Assembly: GCA_007693505.1 (NCBI GenBank) | Contig: REDL01000082.1 | Location: 1 to 64,000, forward strand | Reading direction: 5' to 3' | Length of the DNA stretch: 64,000 nucleotides | DNA from: Desulfovibrionales bacterium | GTDB taxonomy: Bacteria; Desulfobacterota; Desulfovibrionia; Desulfovibrionales; Desulfonatronaceae | Part shown: one piece after another, positions 1-44,081 of the stretch | How positions within the stretch are numbered: position 1 is the stretch's first letter | Layout: every line of letters begins with the position of its first letter | Translations under genes and position numbers: made by a program | Notes under the pieces: model-generated | The model's database searches: none | What the model was told of the DNA's origin: nothing | The model's input: the letters and a program-made list of their open reading frames with translations, nothing else

Positions 1-1359
1 GACACCGATACGGATACCGATACAGACACAGATACCGACACGGATACAGACACCGATACGGATACGGATACCGATACGGATACAGACACAGACACAGATA
101 CAGATACGGACACGGATACAGATGACGACAAACCACCTGTACCTGGAGATACTGATACTGATACCGATGTTGATACGGACACTGATACAGATGATGATAT
201 CAACGATCTAGAAAACGGGATTTCTTATGTAGCTTTTCGCCTGTTCAACAACTCGGTAATCAAGGTTGAAGGTTTCCATAAAGTTAGTGGATTTGAGGAC
301 ATCATAGATCCGTCTTTTCCAAATAACATGAAACCATACATTGAAACTGCGTACAATTCAGAAGTGAGTGAATATATAATCAAGGCAGGTACTGATCACT
401 TTGACCAACAAGGCAATCAGACAACAACACAAGGATGGCCTACAAACCCAGCAGGCAATGTGGGAGGTCGTGATGTAATTACAATACCATTTAGCACTGA
501 TATGCTGAATACTCATAATCAAAATACTGATGATGGAATCACTGGAATGAGCATGACATCAGTATTGCATGAAAATGATGGAGAATCCGGTGAATATCAA
601 AGTATCGGAGATGAGGATGCTGATCTGGATCTATTGGATACAGAAGACTTTGCCCCATCCTTAGCTTCTTCTCATCTCTTGACGGATGAATCCACCATCG
701 AGCCAGATCATGAACTTGAAACATTCCAGTCTTCGGTAGACAATGAAAATTCTCTACAAAACAGTAATAATCTATCCAATGAAGAGACATTCAATTATGA
801 AGACGTTAATGTTGGATTAGATACTGGACATGAAGGTACTGAGGAACAGGGCTCACTGTTGAACTCTGATTACAACACTCCTGGCACGTCAAGCCCTGCT
901 CCTGTCGATGAAACAAGCGACGTCGAGGGCATGGACCAAGAACAAGATGGCCAAGAAGATGGCATCATCAGTAGTGAATATGATGGGGGGGCACCTGACG
1001 CTCAAGACAACTCGATTGCCCCTTTAAGCGAAGATGACCAGCGAGACCTGGGAGTTGAGAGCAGTGACCTGGAAGAGGATGAAGAAGCTGGAAATCAGAC
1101 AGGAATAAATGTCCAATTAATGAATGATGACCAGTCTGAAAGTAGTGGAGTAGAGGGCTTTGAAGGAATAGACTGGGACGCAGACGAAGTCGTCCTCGAT
1201 ATTCAAATCGGTGAAGAGACTATCAGCTGGGAAGCACAGGTGATGCGAGAAGATACAGAGGATGTTCCTGATGCCCCATCGGATACAACTGACTTGGCAA
1301 CATCCGAGAACATTCCGATTATCCCTGATGATGGTGACAGCGAAACTGACGCTATTTGA
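1..1359 (+). CDS. acidic Asp-Thr repeat protein, C-terminal part (5' end outside window)
   Basis: The frame is open from the first base, so the gene starts before the window. The first 120 bases encode 20 consecutive Asp-Thr pairs with mixed synonymous codons. A short DDDKPPVPG spacer and a second Asp-Thr stretch follow to about position 200. Next come roughly 380 residues very rich in Asp, Glu, Ser, Asn and Gln, with almost no Cys and no visible catalytic motif. There is no C-terminal membrane anchor or sorting tail. It resembles the low-complexity linker and tail of a large secreted or surface protein, and function cannot be assigned. The methyltransferase and GT41 glycosyltransferase genes downstream suggest, as inference only, that the Thr-rich repeat could be glycosylated. 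Composition is AT-rich compared with DNA after 3541. Confidence 0.75.
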   Translation, partial: DTDTDTDTDTDTDTDTDTDTDTDTDTDTDTDTDTDTDTDTDDDKPPVPGDTDTDTDVDTDTDTDDDINDLENGISYVAFRLFNNSVIKVEGFHKVSGFEDIIDPSFPNNMKPYIETAYNSEVSEYIIKAGTDHFDQQGNQTTTQGWPTNPAGNVGGRDVITIPFSTDMLNTHNQNTDDGITGMSMTSVLHENDGESGEYQSIGDEDADLDLLDTEDFAPSLASSHLLTDESTIEPDHELETFQSSVDNENSLQNSNNLSNEETFNYEDVNVGLDTGHEGTEEQGSLLNSDYNTPGTSSPAPVDETSDVEGMDQEQDGQEDGIISSEYDGGAPDAQDNSIAPLSEDDQRDLGVESSDLEEDEEAGNQTGINVQLMNDDQSESSGVEGFEGIDWDADEVVLDIQIGEETISWEAQVMREDTEDVPDAPSDTTDLATSENIPIIPDDGDSETDAI

Positions 1360-1368
1360 CGACATCCA

Positions 1369-1412
1369 TTCCTGGGATGGGTGCATAAGATGAATTGCAC
1401 CCATCCCAGGAA
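1369..1412 (+). terminator. 17-bp perfect hairpin after the Asp-Thr protein gene
   Basis: Arms 1369-1385 and 1396-1412 are exact reverse complements around a 10-base loop, nine bases after the stop codon. The arm contains CCTGGGATGGGTGCA. The tract after it on the plus strand is A-rich, not T-rich, so it is not a textbook intrinsic terminator. Its position makes a transcription end or an mRNA-protecting stem the best guess. Confidence 0.55.
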
Positions 1413-1514
1413 AAAAATGGGATACAAACGATGATCTACATGATCAATATAATTTTTACATTACTCTGAAAATTATATATATTTAATTAAATTTTTTTTT
1501 TGAATAAATTTAAA

Positions 1515-2048
1515 ATGCAGCATGAGAGAAACCTTCACATCGGTGGGACACAACAAAAGGCAGGCTGGGAAATTTTTAATATTGCTGCCGGAGATAATGT
1601 CGACCATGTTGGCAATGCGATGAATATGAGTCGTTTTGCGGATCACACATTTCATTCGATATATGCATCACACATATTGGAACATTTTGATTACTATAAA
1701 GAGTTATCCAGTGTTCTCCTGGAATGGAAAAGAATCCTCAATTCTGACGGAACGCTGCTTTTGAGTGTACCGGATATGGATGTTATTGGTAAATTAATTT
1801 CGGATGATTCCTTAACAGTTCAGGAAAGTATCTATGCCATGCGAATGATTTTTGGTGGACAAACAACCCCCTACGACTACCACAAAGTCGGTTTCAATTT
1901 CAGAATACTTCATTGGTATCTTCATCGCACAGGATTCGAACGGATCATCAGAGTTGACAGCTTCAATCTCTTTAGGGACAGCTCAACAAAAATCTTCAAA
2001 GGAAAACAGATCAGTCTCAATGTCATCGCTCGTAAACCGGCAAATTGA
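1515..2048 (+). CDS. SAM-dependent methyltransferase of the glycosyltransferase-associated type
   Basis: This is a small class I methyltransferase of about 177 residues. It opens with NLHIGG, the glycine-rich SAM-binding strand-loop seen in this family. It continues with an acidic loop (DNVDHVGNAMNM), the segment FHSIYASHILEHFDY that matches the usual 'ASHVLEH' motif of Methyltransf_11 proteins, and LNSDGTLLLSVPDMD, the strand 5 region. I start it at the ATG at 1515, just before the conserved NLHIGG, instead of the TTG at 1500; neither has a clear Shine-Dalgarno sequence. Its end overlaps the glycosyltransferase start by 29 bases, so the two are probably co-translated. Such methyltransferases commonly sit in surface polysaccharide or glycoprotein loci. 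The substrate is unknown. Confidence 0.75.
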   Translation: MQHERNLHIGGTQQKAGWEIFNIAAGDNVDHVGNAMNMSRFADHTFHSIYASHILEHFDYYKELSSVLLEWKRILNSDGTLLLSVPDMDVIGKLISDDSLTVQESIYAMRMIFGGQTTPYDYHKVGFNFRILHWYLHRTGFERIIRVDSFNLFRDSSTKIFKGKQISLNVIARKPAN

Positions 2049-3534
2049 TCGGGATACTCCCCAAAGCTCCCTTGAGTCAGGAATTGAAGCATTCAAGAAA
2101 AATCATTTTGAGGAGGCTCTGAAGTATCTCTCTCATGCTACATCGGATGCGAAACACAAAGCCAGAGCGTACCGAGTGCTTGGCAACTGTCTCCGGACGA
2201 TCGGCCGTGTCGACGAAGCCATCTTGGCATACCGAAATGGGCTTCGGCATTCGTACCAGTCAACGACACACCAACGTCTGCTTAATGCACTGAATTACAC
2301 CTTATTGTCCCAGGAAGTGATTGCCAGGGAGCATCGTACGTGGGGCCTAAAGGCTGAGCAGCTTGCCAAAGAAAGATTGGTGTCAACACCATCTCAGTCC
2401 TTTCCCAGGGAAGAAAATATCCCGATACGCGTAGGCTTTGTCTCCGCTGACCTTAAATCCCATCCTGTAGCTTCCTTTTTATTGCCAATTTTTAAAAATT
2501 ACAACAAAAATCATTTTCATTACACTTGCTATGCAAATGATAGTGTCAGCGATGGGGTGACGAAACGTTGCAAAGGGCTTGTCGATGGGTGGAAAATAAT
2601 CAAGGGGACCACCACGGCTCAAGCACGAGAGCAGATACAAAAAGATGGGATTGATATTCTCATCGATCTCTCTGGACACACTTCCGGAAACAGACTCGAT
2701 ATTTTTGCCCTACGAGCTGCCCCGATCCAGGCAACCTATCTTGGATACCCAAATACAACAGGCCTCTCAAGAGTTGATTATCGGCTTGTAGACCCTGTCA
2801 CCGATCCGCCAAGTATTCCCAAGACATGGCATACTGAAAAACTCTATCGCTTGCCGGGATGTTTTCTTTGTTACGAACCGCCTTCCGACAATTTGCCTGT
2901 TTTCCCTCCACCTTATGTTCGCAAAGGACATATTACTTTTGGATCGTTCAACAAGTCGGCAAAAATAAGTGCTCAGTGTCTTGAACTTTGGGTTAAGATA
3001 CTGCAAAGGGTTCCTGACAGCAGCATGTTGTTGAAATCAATCACGTTTGAGAGTGCATCGGAAGTGAATCGATTCCGCAATCACTGCCATAAACTCGGCC
3101 TTGAAGACATACAAAGAATCGATTGCCGCAGGCCGTTACAATACCGCAAAGAACATCTTGATCTCTACAATGAGATGGATATTGCTTTGGACACGTTTCC
3201 CTATAATGGCACGACGACAACTTTCCAGGCGCTTTTCATGTCAACACCGGTGCTCACCTTGCGGGGATCGTCACATGTCGCCCGAGTATCTTCCTCCATC
3301 TTGCATGCCATGGGCTTGGATGAGCTTATCGCAAATGATCCAGAGCAATATGTCGACATTGCCCTTGCCCTGGCGAACAATAAGCCAAAGATAGATACTT
3401 ACAAGAAGACCCTCCGGGAAAAGCTGCTCAATTCACCTCTTGTTGATGGTCCTCGATTTGTGACCCACCTTGAAGAGGCCTTCGCAGAAATGTTCAAGGC
3501 CAGCAATGCGAGTGTTGCTCAGGAAATGCGGTAA
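2020..3534 (+). CDS. TPR and GT41 (SPINDLY/O-GlcNAc transferase-like) glycosyltransferase
   Basis: The protein has about 504 residues. TPR-like helices occupy residues 10-110 (GIEAFKKNHFEEALKYLSHA, then a repeat with GRVDEAILAYRNGL). The rest is the GT41 catalytic region: IRVGFVSADLKSHPVASF with the conserved His, DILIDLSGHTSGNRLDIFALR, then PIQATYLGYPNTTG. After these come FGSFNKSAKIS with the UDP-contacting Lys, and DTFPYNGTTTTFQAL followed by TPVLTLRG. Family knowledge: GT41 enzymes move a sugar from a UDP donor to Ser/Thr of proteins, and bacterial members often modify flagellins or adhesins. The frame is open further upstream, but the ATG at 2020 gives a sensible N-terminus with only a short overlap into the methyltransferase gene. 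Low GC content suggests transfer. The Asp-Thr protein next door is a candidate acceptor by inference. Confidence 0.88.
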   Translation: MSSLVNRQIDRDTPQSSLESGIEAFKKNHFEEALKYLSHATSDAKHKARAYRVLGNCLRTIGRVDEAILAYRNGLRHSYQSTTHQRLLNALNYTLLSQEVIAREHRTWGLKAEQLAKERLVSTPSQSFPREENIPIRVGFVSADLKSHPVASFLLPIFKNYNKNHFHYTCYANDSVSDGVTKRCKGLVDGWKIIKGTTTAQAREQIQKDGIDILIDLSGHTSGNRLDIFALRAAPIQATYLGYPNTTGLSRVDYRLVDPVTDPPSIPKTWHTEKLYRLPGCFLCYEPPSDNLPVFPPPYVRKGHITFGSFNKSAKISAQCLELWVKILQRVPDSSMLLKSITFESASEVNRFRNHCHKLGLEDIQRIDCRRPLQYRKEHLDLYNEMDIALDTFPYNGTTTTFQALFMSTPVLTLRGSSHVARVSSSILHAMGLDELIANDPEQYVDIALALANNKPKIDTYKKTLREKLLNSPLVDGPRFVTHLEEAFAEMFKASNASVAQEMR

Positions 3535-27261: not shown

Positions 27262-27594
27262 ATGAAAGAAACACAAACAATTCAAGAAATGCTTGCCGAA
27301 AGGCTCCGCACCGTCGACCCCAAGATGGTTGCCCTTTTCGGAAGTCATGCCCATGGAACTCCGGGCCAGGACAGCGACTTTGATGTCTATGTCGTGACCA
27401 GGGACCAGTTTATTCCCAAAAATTATCAGGAAAAAAGGCAACTCGTCAGAAAAGTCTCCAAGCCGATCCAGGATATTCGTCAAAAAGTCAGCATTGACCT
27501 GCTGGTCCACACCGAACCCATGAGTGAACTTTTTTTCTCACAAAAGAGTTCGTTTGCCAGAGAAATTCAAAATAACGGGATTTCGTTATTATGA
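27262..27594 (+). CDS. MNT-type nucleotidyltransferase (MntA-like antitoxin)
   Basis: 110 residues. The nucleotidyltransferase motif is complete: VALFGSHAHGTPGQDSDFDV with GS and the DxD pair, and a third acidic residue in VSIDLLVHT. In HEPN/MNT modules the MNT protein blocks the HEPN toxin, in known cases by AMPylating or oligoadenylating it. It overlaps the HEPN start by four bases. Both partners have intact frames. Confidence 0.88.
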   Translation: MKETQTIQEMLAERLRTVDPKMVALFGSHAHGTPGQDSDFDVYVVTRDQFIPKNYQEKRQLVRKVSKPIQDIRQKVSIDLLVHTEPMSELFFSQKSSFAREIQNNGISLL

Positions 27595-27986
27595 CCAAGG
27601 AACTGGCCAAGGCATGGCTCTTTTCCGCACCCGCGGACTTGAAAAGCATTGGGTATATCATTCATGACGAATTTTTATCGCACATTGTTGCCTTTCATGC
27701 CCAGCAGTGCGTGGAAAAGAGTTTCAAGGCGATCCTTGAAAACTCGCAAAAAAGGGTTCCCAAGGAACACTCGACTCTCAAGCTCTACGGCATGATCCAG
27801 CCAGAAATCCAGATGGATCTGGATATGGATATCCTGACGGATTTAGACGATCTCTACATCGATGCTCGATATCCCGGCGATTTCGGTTTGCTGCCCCACG
27901 GCAAGCCGTCACGCGAGGAAGCACGGGAGTTCATGATGTTCGCGCAAGAGATCTTTGAAACAATCAGCAACCATGTCGGTGCATAA
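27591..27986 (+). CDS. HEPN-domain protein (toxin partner of the MNT protein)
   Basis: 131 residues, all-helical. HEPN hallmarks are LAKAWLFSAPADLKSIGYII, the AFHAQQCVEKSFKAIL helix and the end LYIDARYPGDFG. The RX4-6H RNase motif of active HEPN toxins is not clear to me, so it may be a non-cleaving HEPN or use variant residues. It follows the MNT gene in the usual overlapping order and is the last gene of the island before hypE. Confidence 0.82.
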   Translation: MTKELAKAWLFSAPADLKSIGYIIHDEFLSHIVAFHAQQCVEKSFKAILENSQKRVPKEHSTLKLYGMIQPEIQMDLDMDILTDLDDLYIDARYPGDFGLLPHGKPSREEAREFMMFAQEIFETISNHVGA

Positions 27987-39763: not shown

Positions 39764-40348
39764 ATGAAACAATCACTCGGTGCCAAGCCCCTTGTTTTTC
39801 CCACCCCGGTGTGGATCGTGGGATCGTATGATCAGCAGGACAAACCGAACATCATGACCATCGCCTGGGGAGGGGTCTGCTGCTCCAAGCCACCGTGCCT
39901 GACCATATCCTTGCGCAAGGCCACCTATACCTATGCCTGCATCACCGCCCGAAAAGCCTTCACTGTCAACGTCTCCACGGAGTCGGACATCGTGCTCGCC
40001 GACTATTGCGGCATAGCCTCCGGCAAGACAGCGGACAAGTTTGCCGTCACCGGACTCACCCCGGTCAGATCGGAACTTGTGGACGCTCCGTATATCCATG
40101 AATTTGCCTTGGCAGCGGAATGTAAACTCGTGCAGACCGTGGAACTCGGTCTGCATACCATGTTCATTGGCGAAATTATGGACATCAAGGCTGACGAATC
40201 CGTGCTCGGGTCGGATGGCCTGCCGGACCTGGACAAGCTGCGCCCGGTGGCCTTCGGTCCGGTGATCCGCACCTATCATGGACTGGGAGATTATCTCGGC
40301 CCGGCCTTTTCCATCGGCCAGAGCGTTGCCAAGACGGACAACGGGTAG
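39764..40348 (+). CDS. flavoredoxin-type flavin reductase domain protein
   Basis: 194 residues: [52 protein letters not shown], and [20 protein letters not shown], which fit closely the flavoredoxin I know from Desulfovibrio gigas. The family binds FMN non-covalently and, in Desulfovibrio, was linked to electron flow in thiosulfate or sulfite reduction. AGGAGG precedes the ATG by seven bases. It appears to be a single-gene unit. It is one of the better markers that this genome belongs to a sulfate reducer. Confidence 0.88.
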
Positions 40349-40526: not shown

Positions 40527-43388
40527 TTGAAAGTCCTGATGTACAACGAGCTGACACCCGGCAAGATCCCCGGCTTCAAGAAGGTCGTGTCGTTTCTGGA
40601 AAACGGGGATTTTCGCTCCGCGGAAGTCAAGAAACTGGCCCCGAATCTCTTCAGGGCCCGGCTGGACAAGAGCGGCCGCCTGCTGTTTTCCCTGTACCGG
40701 CACAACGGCGAAACCTGCATTCTGGCCCTGGAGCACATCCCGAACCACGCGTATGAAAAATCCCGCTTTCTGCGCGGCGCCACCATCCAGGAAGACAAGA
40801 TCCCGGTCCTGGCCAACCCCGCTACAGAGCAGCCCGAGGACTTGGTCTATCTGAACCCGACCAGTTCCACCTTCCATTTGCTGGACAAGATCCTGTCCTT
40901 TGATGACCTGCAGCAGGCTGTGTTCACGGTGCCCCCGCCGCTGATCGTGATCGGCTCCGCGGGCAGCGGCAAGACCGCTCTGACCCTGGAAAAGATGAAG
41001 CTGGCTGCCGGGGACGTGCTGTACGTGACCACCTCGCCGTACCTGGTCCAGAGTGCCCGGAACATCTATCACGCCTACGGGTACGCCAACGAGGCCCAGA
41101 ACATCGACTTCCTGTCCTACCAGGAGTTCCTGGAAAGCATCCGGGTTCCCCAGGGCCGGGAGCTCAGCTTTCGGGAATTCGAGGCCTGGATCTCCCGCCA
41201 GCGCCTGTCTAGGGATCTGCGCGACGCCCACCAGCTGTATGAGGAGTTCAAAGGCGTGCTGACCGGATCGGCAGACGCGGTCTGTCTGAGCCAGGAGCAG
41301 TATCTGGGGCTGGGAGTGAAGCAGTCCATCTATCCCCGGGAGCAGCGCCAGGAGGTCTATGACCTGTTTCGCGGCTACCTGCGCCTGCTCCAGGACCAGG
41401 GCTGCTATGACGTGAACATGCTCAGCCACGCCTATGCCGATCTGATCCAGCCGCGGTACGATTTTGCCGTGGTGGACGAGGTCCAGGACCTCACCGCGGT
41501 GCAGCTGCAGCTGATCCTGCGCTCCCTGCGCAAGATCCGCAATTTCATCCTCTGCGGCGACTCCAATCAGATCGTCCACCCGAACTTCTTCTCCTGGGCC
41601 CGGGTAAAGAGTTTTTTTTACGCCCAGGAGGACGCCGGCCCCCCTTCTGAACTGATCCGCATCCTGAACACCAATTATCGCAACTCCCCGGAAATCACCG
41701 AGCTGGCCAACCGGATCCTGAAAATGAAAAACGCCCGGTTCGGCTCCGTGGACCGGGAAAGCAACTATCTGGTCCACAGCACGGCCCGAGAGCCGGGCAA
41801 GGTACTGCTGCTGCGCGACGAGCCGTCGCGGCTGCGGGAGATGGGGCAGCGGGCCAGAACCTCCACCCGGTACGCGGTGATCGTCCTGCATCCCGAGCAA
41901 AAGGCTGCGGCCAGAGCCGCCTTCGGCAGCCCCCTGGTCTTTTCCATCCAGGAAGCCAAGGGGTTGGAATACGAAAACGTGATCCTGTTCAACGTCACCT
42001 CCTCGGCGGCCAAGCGGTTCGCGGAGATCACCAGCGGCGTGACCCCGGAGCAGCTCCAGGGCGAAGACCTGAACTACGGACGGGCCAAGGACAAGAGCGA
42101 CAAATCCCTGGAAATCTACAAGTTCTACATCAACGCCCTGTACGTGGCCGTAACCCGGGCCGTGACCAACCTGTTCTGGGTGGAAAGCGAGCCCGGGCAT
42201 GCGCTGTTCAGCCTGCTGGGCCTGGAAGCCCTGACCGGCAAGCTGGACTTGGACAGCCGCCAGTCCAGCCTGGATGAATGGCGGCAAGAGGCGCACAAGC
42301 TGGAGCTGCAGGGCAAGCAGGAGCAGGCCGAGGCCATCCGCCGCGACATCCTCAAGCAGAAGACCCCGCCCTGGAAGGTGCTGGTGGATGAAACCCTGGC
42401 CGCGGTGGAGCACAACGCCCTGGTCCAGGGCGAGAAGAAGTCCCGGTTGCAGCTCTTTGACTACGCCCTGGTCTACAACGACCAGAAGCGGCTCCACGAT
42501 CTGCGCAAGGTCGGTTTCGCTCCCGCGGACAAACCGGATAAGGGGCTGACCATCCTGAATCAAAAGCACTTTTACACCTACGAGCTGAAGCAAAGCGCCG
42601 CGGTGATGCGCCAGGTGGATGATTTCGGGGTGGACTTCCGGGACGTCTTCAACCAGACTCCCCTAATGAACGCGGCCCGGATGGGCAATGCTGATCTGGC
42701 CAGGCGCCTGCTGGAGGCCGGAGCGGACACCTCCAGCGTGAACAGCGCCGGGTTCAATGCCTTCCGGATCATCCTGGAGCAGGCGGTCGTGAACCCCAAG
42801 TACGCGACCCGCAAGCTGCCGGAACTGTACGATCTGCTGGTTCCGGACAGCATGTCCGTCCAGGTGGAAGGCAAGCTGATCAAGATCGACAAGATCTGCA
42901 TGGACTTTTTTCTGCTCAACCTGATGATGGCCATGTTCTATGTCCGGTTCGGGGTCAAGTTCCTGCATCAGGCCGGGCGCTGCTTTGAAACCGCGGACTT
43001 CATCCAGGTCATGGAACCCTTCCCGGAAAGCGTCCTCCTGGAGCGCCGCAAGAAGCGGCCTTACCTGTCCAGCATTCTCGCCAAGAACGAAATGCACCGG
43101 GACGGTCCCTACAATCGCCGGCTGTTCGTGCGGATGCGCCAGGGCAACTACCTCTTCAATCCCCGGCTCAGTCTGCGCGTGGAAGGCCAGTGGTGCAACA
43201 TCTACGACGTTCTGAACGTGAACATGCTCTACGTCCGTTTTGACCTCAAAAACACGGACGCGAACCAGCTGGCCCGCATCGAAAACATTACCGACAACAA
43301 TCTGCTGCGATTGCGAACCTGGCTGGACAAAACACGCCAGGAGCCCGAAACCTCTTCCACCAAGGGTATGCATCCGGAGCAGAGCTGA
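40527..43388 (+). CDS. superfamily 1 (UvrD-like) helicase with RelE-like N-terminus and ankyrin repeat
   Basis: About 953 residues. Residues 1-75 (APNLFRARLDKSGRLLFSLY, then TCILALEHIPNHAYEKSRFL) have the strand pattern of RelE-superfamily toxins. The helicase follows: Walker A GSAGSGKT at 143-150, motif II DEVQD at 317-321, GDSNQIVHPNFFSW, NTNYRNSPEI, QEAKGLEYENVILF at 475, and YVAVTRA near 540. A helical linker leads to an ankyrin unit near 708-750 (NQTPLMNAARMGNADLARRL, LEAGADTSSVNSAGFN). The C-terminal 200 residues are unassigned. The start is probably TTG at 40527, nine bases after GGAGA; ATG at 40539 is an alternative. The DUF554 gene begins three bases after its stop. RelE-UvrD combinations exist, but the role is unknown; a nucleic-acid stress or defence function is possible. 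Confidence 0.82.
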   Translation: MKVLMYNELTPGKIPGFKKVVSFLENGDFRSAEVKKLAPNLFRARLDKSGRLLFSLYRHNGETCILALEHIPNHAYEKSRFLRGATIQEDKIPVLANPATEQPEDLVYLNPTSSTFHLLDKILSFDDLQQAVFTVPPPLIVIGSAGSGKTALTLEKMKLAAGDVLYVTTSPYLVQSARNIYHAYGYANEAQNIDFLSYQEFLESIRVPQGRELSFREFEAWISRQRLSRDLRDAHQLYEEFKGVLTGSADAVCLSQEQYLGLGVKQSIYPREQRQEVYDLFRGYLRLLQDQGCYDVNMLSHAYADLIQPRYDFAVVDEVQDLTAVQLQLILRSLRKIRNFILCGDSNQIVHPNFFSWARVKSFFYAQEDAGPPSELIRILNTNYRNSPEITELANRILKMKNARFGSVDRESNYLVHSTAREPGKVLLLRDEPSRLREMGQRARTSTRYAVIVLHPEQKAAARAAFGSPLVFSIQEAKGLEYENVILFNVTSSAAKRFAEITSGVTPEQLQGEDLNYGRAKDKSDKSLEIYKFYINALYVAVTRAVTNLFWVESEPGHALFSLLGLEALTGKLDLDSRQSSLDEWRQEAHKLELQGKQEQAEAIRRDILKQKTPPWKVLVDETLAAVEHNALVQGEKKSRLQLFDYALVYNDQKRLHDLRKVGFAPADKPDKGLTILNQKHFYTYELKQSAAVMRQVDDFGVDFRDVFNQTPLMNAARMGNADLARRLLEAGADTSSVNSAGFNAFRIILEQAVVNPKYATRKLPELYDLLVPDSMSVQVEGKLIKIDKICMDFFLLNLMMAMFYVRFGVKFLHQAGRCFETADFIQVMEPFPESVLLERRKKRPYLSSILAKNEMHRDGPYNRRLFVRMRQGNYLFNPRLSLRVEGQWCNIYDVLNVNMLYVRFDLKNTDANQLARIENITDNNLLRLRTWLDKTRQEPETSSTKGMHPEQS

Positions 43389-43391
43389 CCC

Positions 43392-44081
43392 ATGCCCATC
43401 GGTACCCTGATCAATGCCTGCGCCATCATCATCGGCAGTCTGCTCGGCCTGGTACTTGGCGGGCGCTTCTCGGACCGCTACCGCACCCTGGTCTACCACT
43501 CCATCGGGCTCTGCGTGCTGGTCATTGGCCTACATATGGCCCTGAGCTTCCAAAACATTCTGATCCTGGTTTTTTCCATGCTCTGCGGTGCGCTCTGCGG
43601 CCAACTCCTCCGCCTGGATGACCGTCTGACCATGGCCGGCAACGCCCTGAAAAATCGCCTCGGCTCCAAGGACGCCCGATTCACGGATGGTTTCGTTACC
43701 GCCTCCCTGCTGTTTTGCATCGGCTCCATGGCCATTCTTGGCTCCATCGACGAGGGCATTCGCGGTGACCGGACCATCCTGCTGACCAAATCCATCCTGG
43801 ACGGCTTTATTTGCATCCCCCTGGCCTCCACCTACGGCATTGGTGTGATGTTTTCCTTTTTGTCCGTCCTGCTCTACCAGGGCGGCATCACTCTTTTGGC
43901 TGGTCAGGCCCAAAACCTCTTCACCGAGCCAATCATCGCCCAACTCACCTCCACCGGAGGCCTGCTGATCATGGGCATCGGCATCAATCTGCTGGAACTG
44001 AAAACCATCAACGTCACCAATATGCTGCCCGCGCTGTTCTTTGCCGTACTCTTTACGGTTTTCTTTTCAAATGCCTTTTGA
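43392..44081 (+). CDS. DUF554 membrane protein (YdfK-like)
   Basis: 229 residues with about seven hydrophobic segments. The DUF554 pattern is clear: MPIGTLINACAIIIGSLLGL, GLCVLVIGLHMAL, FTDGFVTASLLFCIGSMAIL, GSIDEGIRGDRTILLTKSIL, DGFICIPLASTYGIGVMFS, and IMGIGINLLELKTINVTNML. The function of the family is not established; a transporter is often suggested. It starts three bases after the helicase stop, so the two are probably co-transcribed. Confidence 0.9.
   Translation: MPIGTLINACAIIIGSLLGLVLGGRFSDRYRTLVYHSIGLCVLVIGLHMALSFQNILILVFSMLCGALCGQLLRLDDRLTMAGNALKNRLGSKDARFTDGFVTASLLFCIGSMAILGSIDEGIRGDRTILLTKSILDGFICIPLASTYGIGVMFSFLSVLLYQGGITLLAGQAQNLFTEPIIAQLTSTGGLLIMGIGINLLELKTINVTNMLPALFFAVLFTVFFSNAF

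Follow-up and report, generated by a model that had tools for sequence, protein, structure and literature searches.

RelE toxins are normally paired with a separate antitoxin. RelE-type toxins are RNases of the ribosomal A site, and the word helicase is absent from the survey of mono- and multidomain BECR toxins that Gerdes published in 2025 (PMC11980606). ArmD, in which a RelE-like part is joined to a GajB-like UvrD part, is essential for phage defense by ARMADA type II, and mutation of its Walker A lysine abolishes protection (PMC12458937). ArmD has as operon partners ArmA (a BrxHII-like helicase), ArmB (a PglX-like methyltransferase), and ArmC (a YprA-like helicase).

We analyzed a stretch of 64,000 nucleotides (the window) that encodes a protein whose nearest tested counterpart in architecture is ArmD. 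Both begin with a RelE-like domain followed by a UvrD-type SF1 helicase, but the window protein and its family add ankyrin repeats and a conserved tail, and the gene, in contrast to that of ArmD, is solitary. The features of the locus are as follows.

39764..40348, + strand: flavin reductase-like gene, left border of the insertion site, outside the system
40527..43388, + strand: RelE-like, SF1A helicase, ankyrin, and conserved tail protein; 953 aa, TTG start, single intact ORF
40527..40778, + strand: RelE/YoeB-like domain, residues 1-84 (family profile, alignment, AlphaFold2)
40863..42242, + strand: UvrD/Rep/PcrA-type SF1 helicase core, residues about 113-572 (Pfam, structure comparison)
40953..40976, + strand: Walker A GSAGSGKT, residues 143-150 (G143 and A145-T150 invariant, S144 nearly so)
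41475..41489, + strand: Walker B/motif II DEVQD, residues 317-321 (family alignment)
42147..42161, + strand: motif VI AVTRA, residues 541-545 (family alignment)
42360..42803, + strand: helical repeats into ankyrin repeats, residues about 612-760 (Pfam Ank, 710-739)
42846..43205, + strand: conserved C-terminal domain, residues about 774-893 (motif RKKRxYxSSILxKNE...RxLFxRxxxGxYxxNP)
43206..43385, + strand: variable C-terminal extension, last 50-60 residues, missing from many homologues
43392..44081, + strand: DUF554 membrane protein gene (PF04474, 9.4e-81), right border of the insertion site, outside the system

The TTG at 40527, given as the start in the original prediction, is right. A GTGGAG ribosome-binding motif with TTG-AAAGTCCTGAT at this position is conserved in two sister genomes of the genus, and the N termini of the homologues coincide with it in the family alignment; because of this, a start at the in-frame ATG farther upstream (40428) need not be assumed.

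The RelE fold proposed for the N terminus held up, both in matches to the ParE_like and YoeB families and in the predicted order of strands and helices. Pfam gave no match to the isolated RelE part of the window copy, but among 29 family members ParE_like (PF24732) was matched by four (best, 1.7e-5) and YoeB (PF06769) by one (0.017), and YoeB proteins were the sole PDB matches of the family profile (E about 0.1). AlphaFold2 modeled residues 1 to 72 as beta-alpha-beta4 with a pLDDT near 90. Thus, PF24732, the YoeB match of the profile, and the strand and helix order point weakly but consistently to a BECR-fold toxin domain. The domain ranks among the most conserved parts of the protein; K19, K36, R43, R51, L68, E69, H74, Y76, S79, R80, and F81 are invariant in the family alignment. 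R51, H74, Y76, and R80 lie roughly at what we take to be the positions of the catalytic Arg and His/Tyr in YoeB/RelE, and together with K36 and R43 they are compatible with an active site without proving one; with similarity to YoeB this weak (E about 0.1), catalysis by the domain is not assured. What the family has in common with the YoeB, RelE, and ParE type II toxins is therefore a weak profile similarity, the predicted fold, and the Arg and His/Tyr positions, but here the domain is fused to a helicase and an antitoxin gene is not nearby.

The helicase is complete, as predicted, with UvrD modules recognized by Pfam, intact motifs, and a Rep/UvrD/PcrA-like fold. In the window protein, Pfam found UvrD-helicase (3.5e-9), UvrD_C_2 (2.8e-7), and Ank (1.8e-4), and an alignment of 55 members showed that GxAGSGKT, DExQD, GDxNQ, and motif VI are kept in the family. 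The whole-chain AlphaFold2 model (pLDDT 86) superposes on Rep, UvrD, and PcrA over about 400 residues (Z 20 to 24, rmsd 4 to 5); the top match was Rep (1uaa; Z 23.8, 395 residues, rmsd 3.9), and HelD ranked after these three. Walker A, DExxD, motifs III to VI, and the UvrD-like fold place the protein in SF1A. Although it has the fold and motifs in common with UvrD, Rep, and PcrA, it is the product of an accessory gene with other flanking domains and is not an equivalog; its scores were far under every cutoff of the NCBIfam UvrD/Rep/PcrA/HelD equivalogs (for pcrA, 31.6 bits versus 911).

The predicted ankyrin unit is present but is not isolated; it continues a helical-repeat region, and Ank_2 was matched by 51 of the 55 homologues. 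Likewise, the 200 residues that had been called an unassigned tail have no Pfam match, but most of them form the conserved domain at about 774 to 893, and only the last 50 to 60 are variable. This domain has five invariant positions across 44 members. Its model, with a pLDDT mostly over 90, consists of two strands, a long helix, shorter helices, and two beta-hairpins, an order that together with the motif suggests a winged-helix-like domain, although Foldseek and VIA searches with the C-terminal model gave lists filled by ankyrins, without a winged-helix match.

The link to ArmD is one of architecture only. An ArmD-like RelE plus UvrD protein of 593+ aa, with PADLOC matches to NERD+UvrD and GajB, is encoded behind another large ORF in a relative from the same order (G021, L116:1420-3198), and this locus is possibly an ARMADA-type system. 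The window protein aligns with this candidate over the helicase only (about 24% identity, 289 residues); the N terminus of the candidate gave no profile alignment with the family RelE domain, in a comparison that is insensitive with a single sequence on one side. The best PADLOC models for the window protein were DRT- and Gabija-type UvrD helicases, as partial matches (GajB best, 8e-10). The UvrD-like SF1 core is thus shared with GajB, but the gene for the GajA nuclease of Gabija is missing beside the window gene and its homologues, and the RelE, ankyrin, and tail parts are extra. The Schlafen proteins SLFN11 and SLFN14 likewise have an N-terminal RNase and an SF1 helicase that superposes on that of the window protein (Z 16 to 18, about 280 residues, rmsd about 4), but their RNase fold is another one and ankyrin repeats are lacking, so that the likeness is an analogy only. 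Eukaryotic TRANK1, a UvrD plus ankyrin protein, is possible kin of the family. The literature searched (open-licence papers) gave no description of this exact family, which is real and well conserved and, apparently, undescribed as a family. It is a variant on the known RelE-UvrD theme.

A search for homologues using one genome per species gave 93 confirmed relatives, of which 80 were kept. They are mainly from Chromatiaceae, methanotrophs, Nitrosomonas, Acinetobacter, Rickettsia- and Piscirickettsia-type bacteria, and gut or termite Bacteroidota. A single architecture is found in Pseudomonadota, Bacteroidota, Nitrospirota, and others, and it is constant across phyla at 39 to 60% identity. The original prediction had named a core-genome distribution as a finding that would count against it, but the distribution is patchy and horizontal: 3 of 8 genomes of the genus and 4 of 395 sampled genomes of the phylum, the window genome counted, have a match. 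Such a distribution fits an accessory or conflict gene.

In a tree made by a quick method, with several long branches, the window copy groups with copies from Chromatiaceae (Gammaproteobacteria) with an SH-aLRT of 96, apart from those own-phylum copies that could be placed. The GC3 of the helicase gene is 0.85, versus 0.65 to 0.78 in its neighbors. Between the window and sister genome G002, dN/dS is 0.126 overall, 0.088 for the RelE part, and 0.13 for the helicase; the family is under purifying selection. From the patchy distribution, the tree, GC3, and dN/dS, the helicase gene appears to have been gained here by horizontal transfer and to be foreign yet maintained.

Copies are found on plasmids of Methylosinus, Piscirickettsia, Polymorphobacter, Thermus, and Shigella (those on Shigella virulence plasmids named from the search list alone). 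Of 5,426 E. coli genomes, 94 have a DNA-level match. The islands around five E. coli copies (L119, L120, L121, L122, and L123) are variable and contain CbtA/CbeA, RadC, antirestriction, inovirus Gp2, CDI, or IS genes. Three of these copies are annotated as pseudogenes, a sign that the gene may be costly or under relaxed selection at such sites. An ORF upstream of the gene in the E. coli islands was considered as an antitoxin and rejected; neither the window nor any other locus examined has it, apart from the prophage-like L100. In that IMG/VR contig (L100:4210-10859), the homologue directly adjoins genes for a Mu-like repressor and transposase/MuB-type proteins, as if it were prophage cargo or at a prophage edge. 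There was no match among 50,697 records of a phage collection.

The gene for the DUF554 membrane protein does start three bases past the stop codon of the helicase gene, as predicted, and a similar same-strand junction is found in G002. These are the grounds for a two-gene system of helicase fusion and membrane protein, but the rest of the evidence leaves that reading a close to negligible probability. DUF554 is present in 6 of 8 genomes of the genus and in 37 of a sample of 61 relatives, and it is often without the helicase (4 of the 8, and many genomes of the order). One of the three helicase genes in the genus is a contig-end fragment. In the window, the neighbors of the helicase gene are Usp, flavin reductase, DUF554, and Rnf genes. 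Of the four genus genomes with DUF554 alone, three reveal the site: in G004 and G006, flavin reductase is followed after about 85 bp by DUF554 and RnfD, with the helicase missing. It is also missing from this gap in G003, which holds another small ORF (L089:822-1394, with a lipoprotein-like start), and given that difference the gap may be an insertion spot. By tblastn, DUF554 was near the helicase homologue in none of the 80 homologous loci, 57 of which extend >1.5 kb downstream. A conserved linkage, and with it the predicted membrane partner, is thus refuted, but the two genes may be cotranscribed in this sublineage; a promoter scan between them gave nothing exceeding chance. Given the tree, repeated losses of the helicase at this site are less likely than insertion. 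With the helicase gene inserted, its pairing with DUF554 is a positional accident, and DUF554 is an older, unrelated resident of the site. A flavin reductase-like gene is also directly upstream of the helicase in two Paludibacter copies (L049:7300-7923 and L060:4222-4869, one lineage), a likeness to the window that is probably due to chance.

Nor did the homologues reveal any other partner. Clustering of 363 flanking ORFs of at least 70 aa gave no recurrent partner beyond close strains, and no conserved antitoxin-like gene was among them; the largest cluster, of ABC-type ATPases, came from 5 loci, and the neighbors are mostly unrelated housekeeping genes. PADLOC applied to 119 neighbors gave scattered single matches (Cas1, HEC-06, Cas12f-like, and pAgo-like), which are descriptive and without a control set, and no recurrent defense system. 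The gene is solitary, without a fixed partner or antitoxin. Of the predicted stress or anti-phage layout, the RelE-like plus UvrD part has a tested defense precedent in ArmD; the membrane partner fell away, and location in defense islands is not supported generally. Elsewhere in the window are a textbook MNT-HEPN toxin-antitoxin pair (27262-27986; NTP_transf_2 then HEPN PF05168, with a 4-base overlap and a local GC dip) and, at the low-GC start (1-3534; 42% in the first 2 kb), a gene for a TPR plus glycosyltransferase family 41 protein (1852-3534).

What might such a protein do? That Rep, UvrD, PcrA, and then HelD are its best structural matches, and that its gene is mostly chromosomal, solitary, and under purifying selection, would suit an accessory helicase of DNA repair or replication that removes DNA or RNA-polymerase obstacles as UvrD/Rep/PcrA or HelD do, with the RelE fold as an inactive binding module. 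We consider this rather unlikely: the gene is not core but rare, with a horizontal spread, the NCBIfam scores are far too low, and invariant charged residues in the RelE domain would be less needed in a mere scaffold. The A-site activity of RelE-type toxins raises the alternative of a ribosome or mRNA surveillance factor, in which the RelE domain would dock in the A site and the SF1 motor would strip or degrade mRNA under stress. The SF1 matches do include Upf1 and Ighmbp2 as well as SLFN11 and SLFN14 with their N-terminal RNase, and there is a weak Pfam match to Viral_helicase1. By Z score, however, the helicase core resembles DNA-type UvrD/Rep more than it does the Upf1-like RNA helicases, and a patchy distribution is odd for such a role, which makes this reading distinctly unlikely. 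The ankyrin repeats, and the homologues in relatives of Rickettsia and Piscirickettsia and in bivalve or termite symbionts, bring to mind a secreted or host-directed protein of intracellular bacteria, but many of the bacteria that carry the gene live freely (purple sulfur bacteria, methanotrophs, Nitrosomonas, and Thermus) and in nearly all homologues the ankyrin part lies inside the chain, with a bacterial helicase on one side and the tail on the other; this reading is very improbable.

We favor, over both the repair helicase and the surveillance factor, a helicase-gated RNase with a role in conflict or defense, a tentative reading that we hold at somewhat below an even chance. It is favored because the architecture is fixed, the motifs are intact, the RelE residues are invariant, the family is under purifying selection, carriers include mobile elements, and ArmD provides a precedent. 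Counting against it are the housekeeping neighbors, the lack of a match in the phage records, the weak RelE similarity, and the purely architectural nature of the link to ArmD. Starting from the parts that were observed (architecture, motif integrity, selection, mobility, and lack of a partner), we infer an RNase activity, its gating by the helicase, a trigger, and a role in defense. The tail, which probably binds nucleic acid, would together with the repeats and the helicase recognize foreign or abnormal nucleic acid or an intermediate of an invader's replication or transcription. Until then the RelE-like domain would be held silent inside the chain, without a separate antitoxin. ATP-driven movement of the helicase would expose it, and the freed domain would cut mRNA, probably on ribosomes, which would stop growth of the invader or halt the cell. 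A bolder form of the helicase-gated RNase, which we regard as rather doubtful, is an antitoxin-free immune protein spread across phyla as a single gene, in which the SF1A helicase would be antitoxin and sensor at once, silencing an active RelE-type RNase and releasing it at invader nucleic acid.

One lesson of this locus is that a 3-bp adjacency of genes in one genome can reflect insertion history alone. For the family, the RelE-UvrD idea of ARMADA is extended to a gene that stands alone and whose product has a protein-interaction scaffold. A single-chain RelE-helicase family without a conserved nearby antitoxin raises the question of what would keep such an RNase off and what would switch it on.
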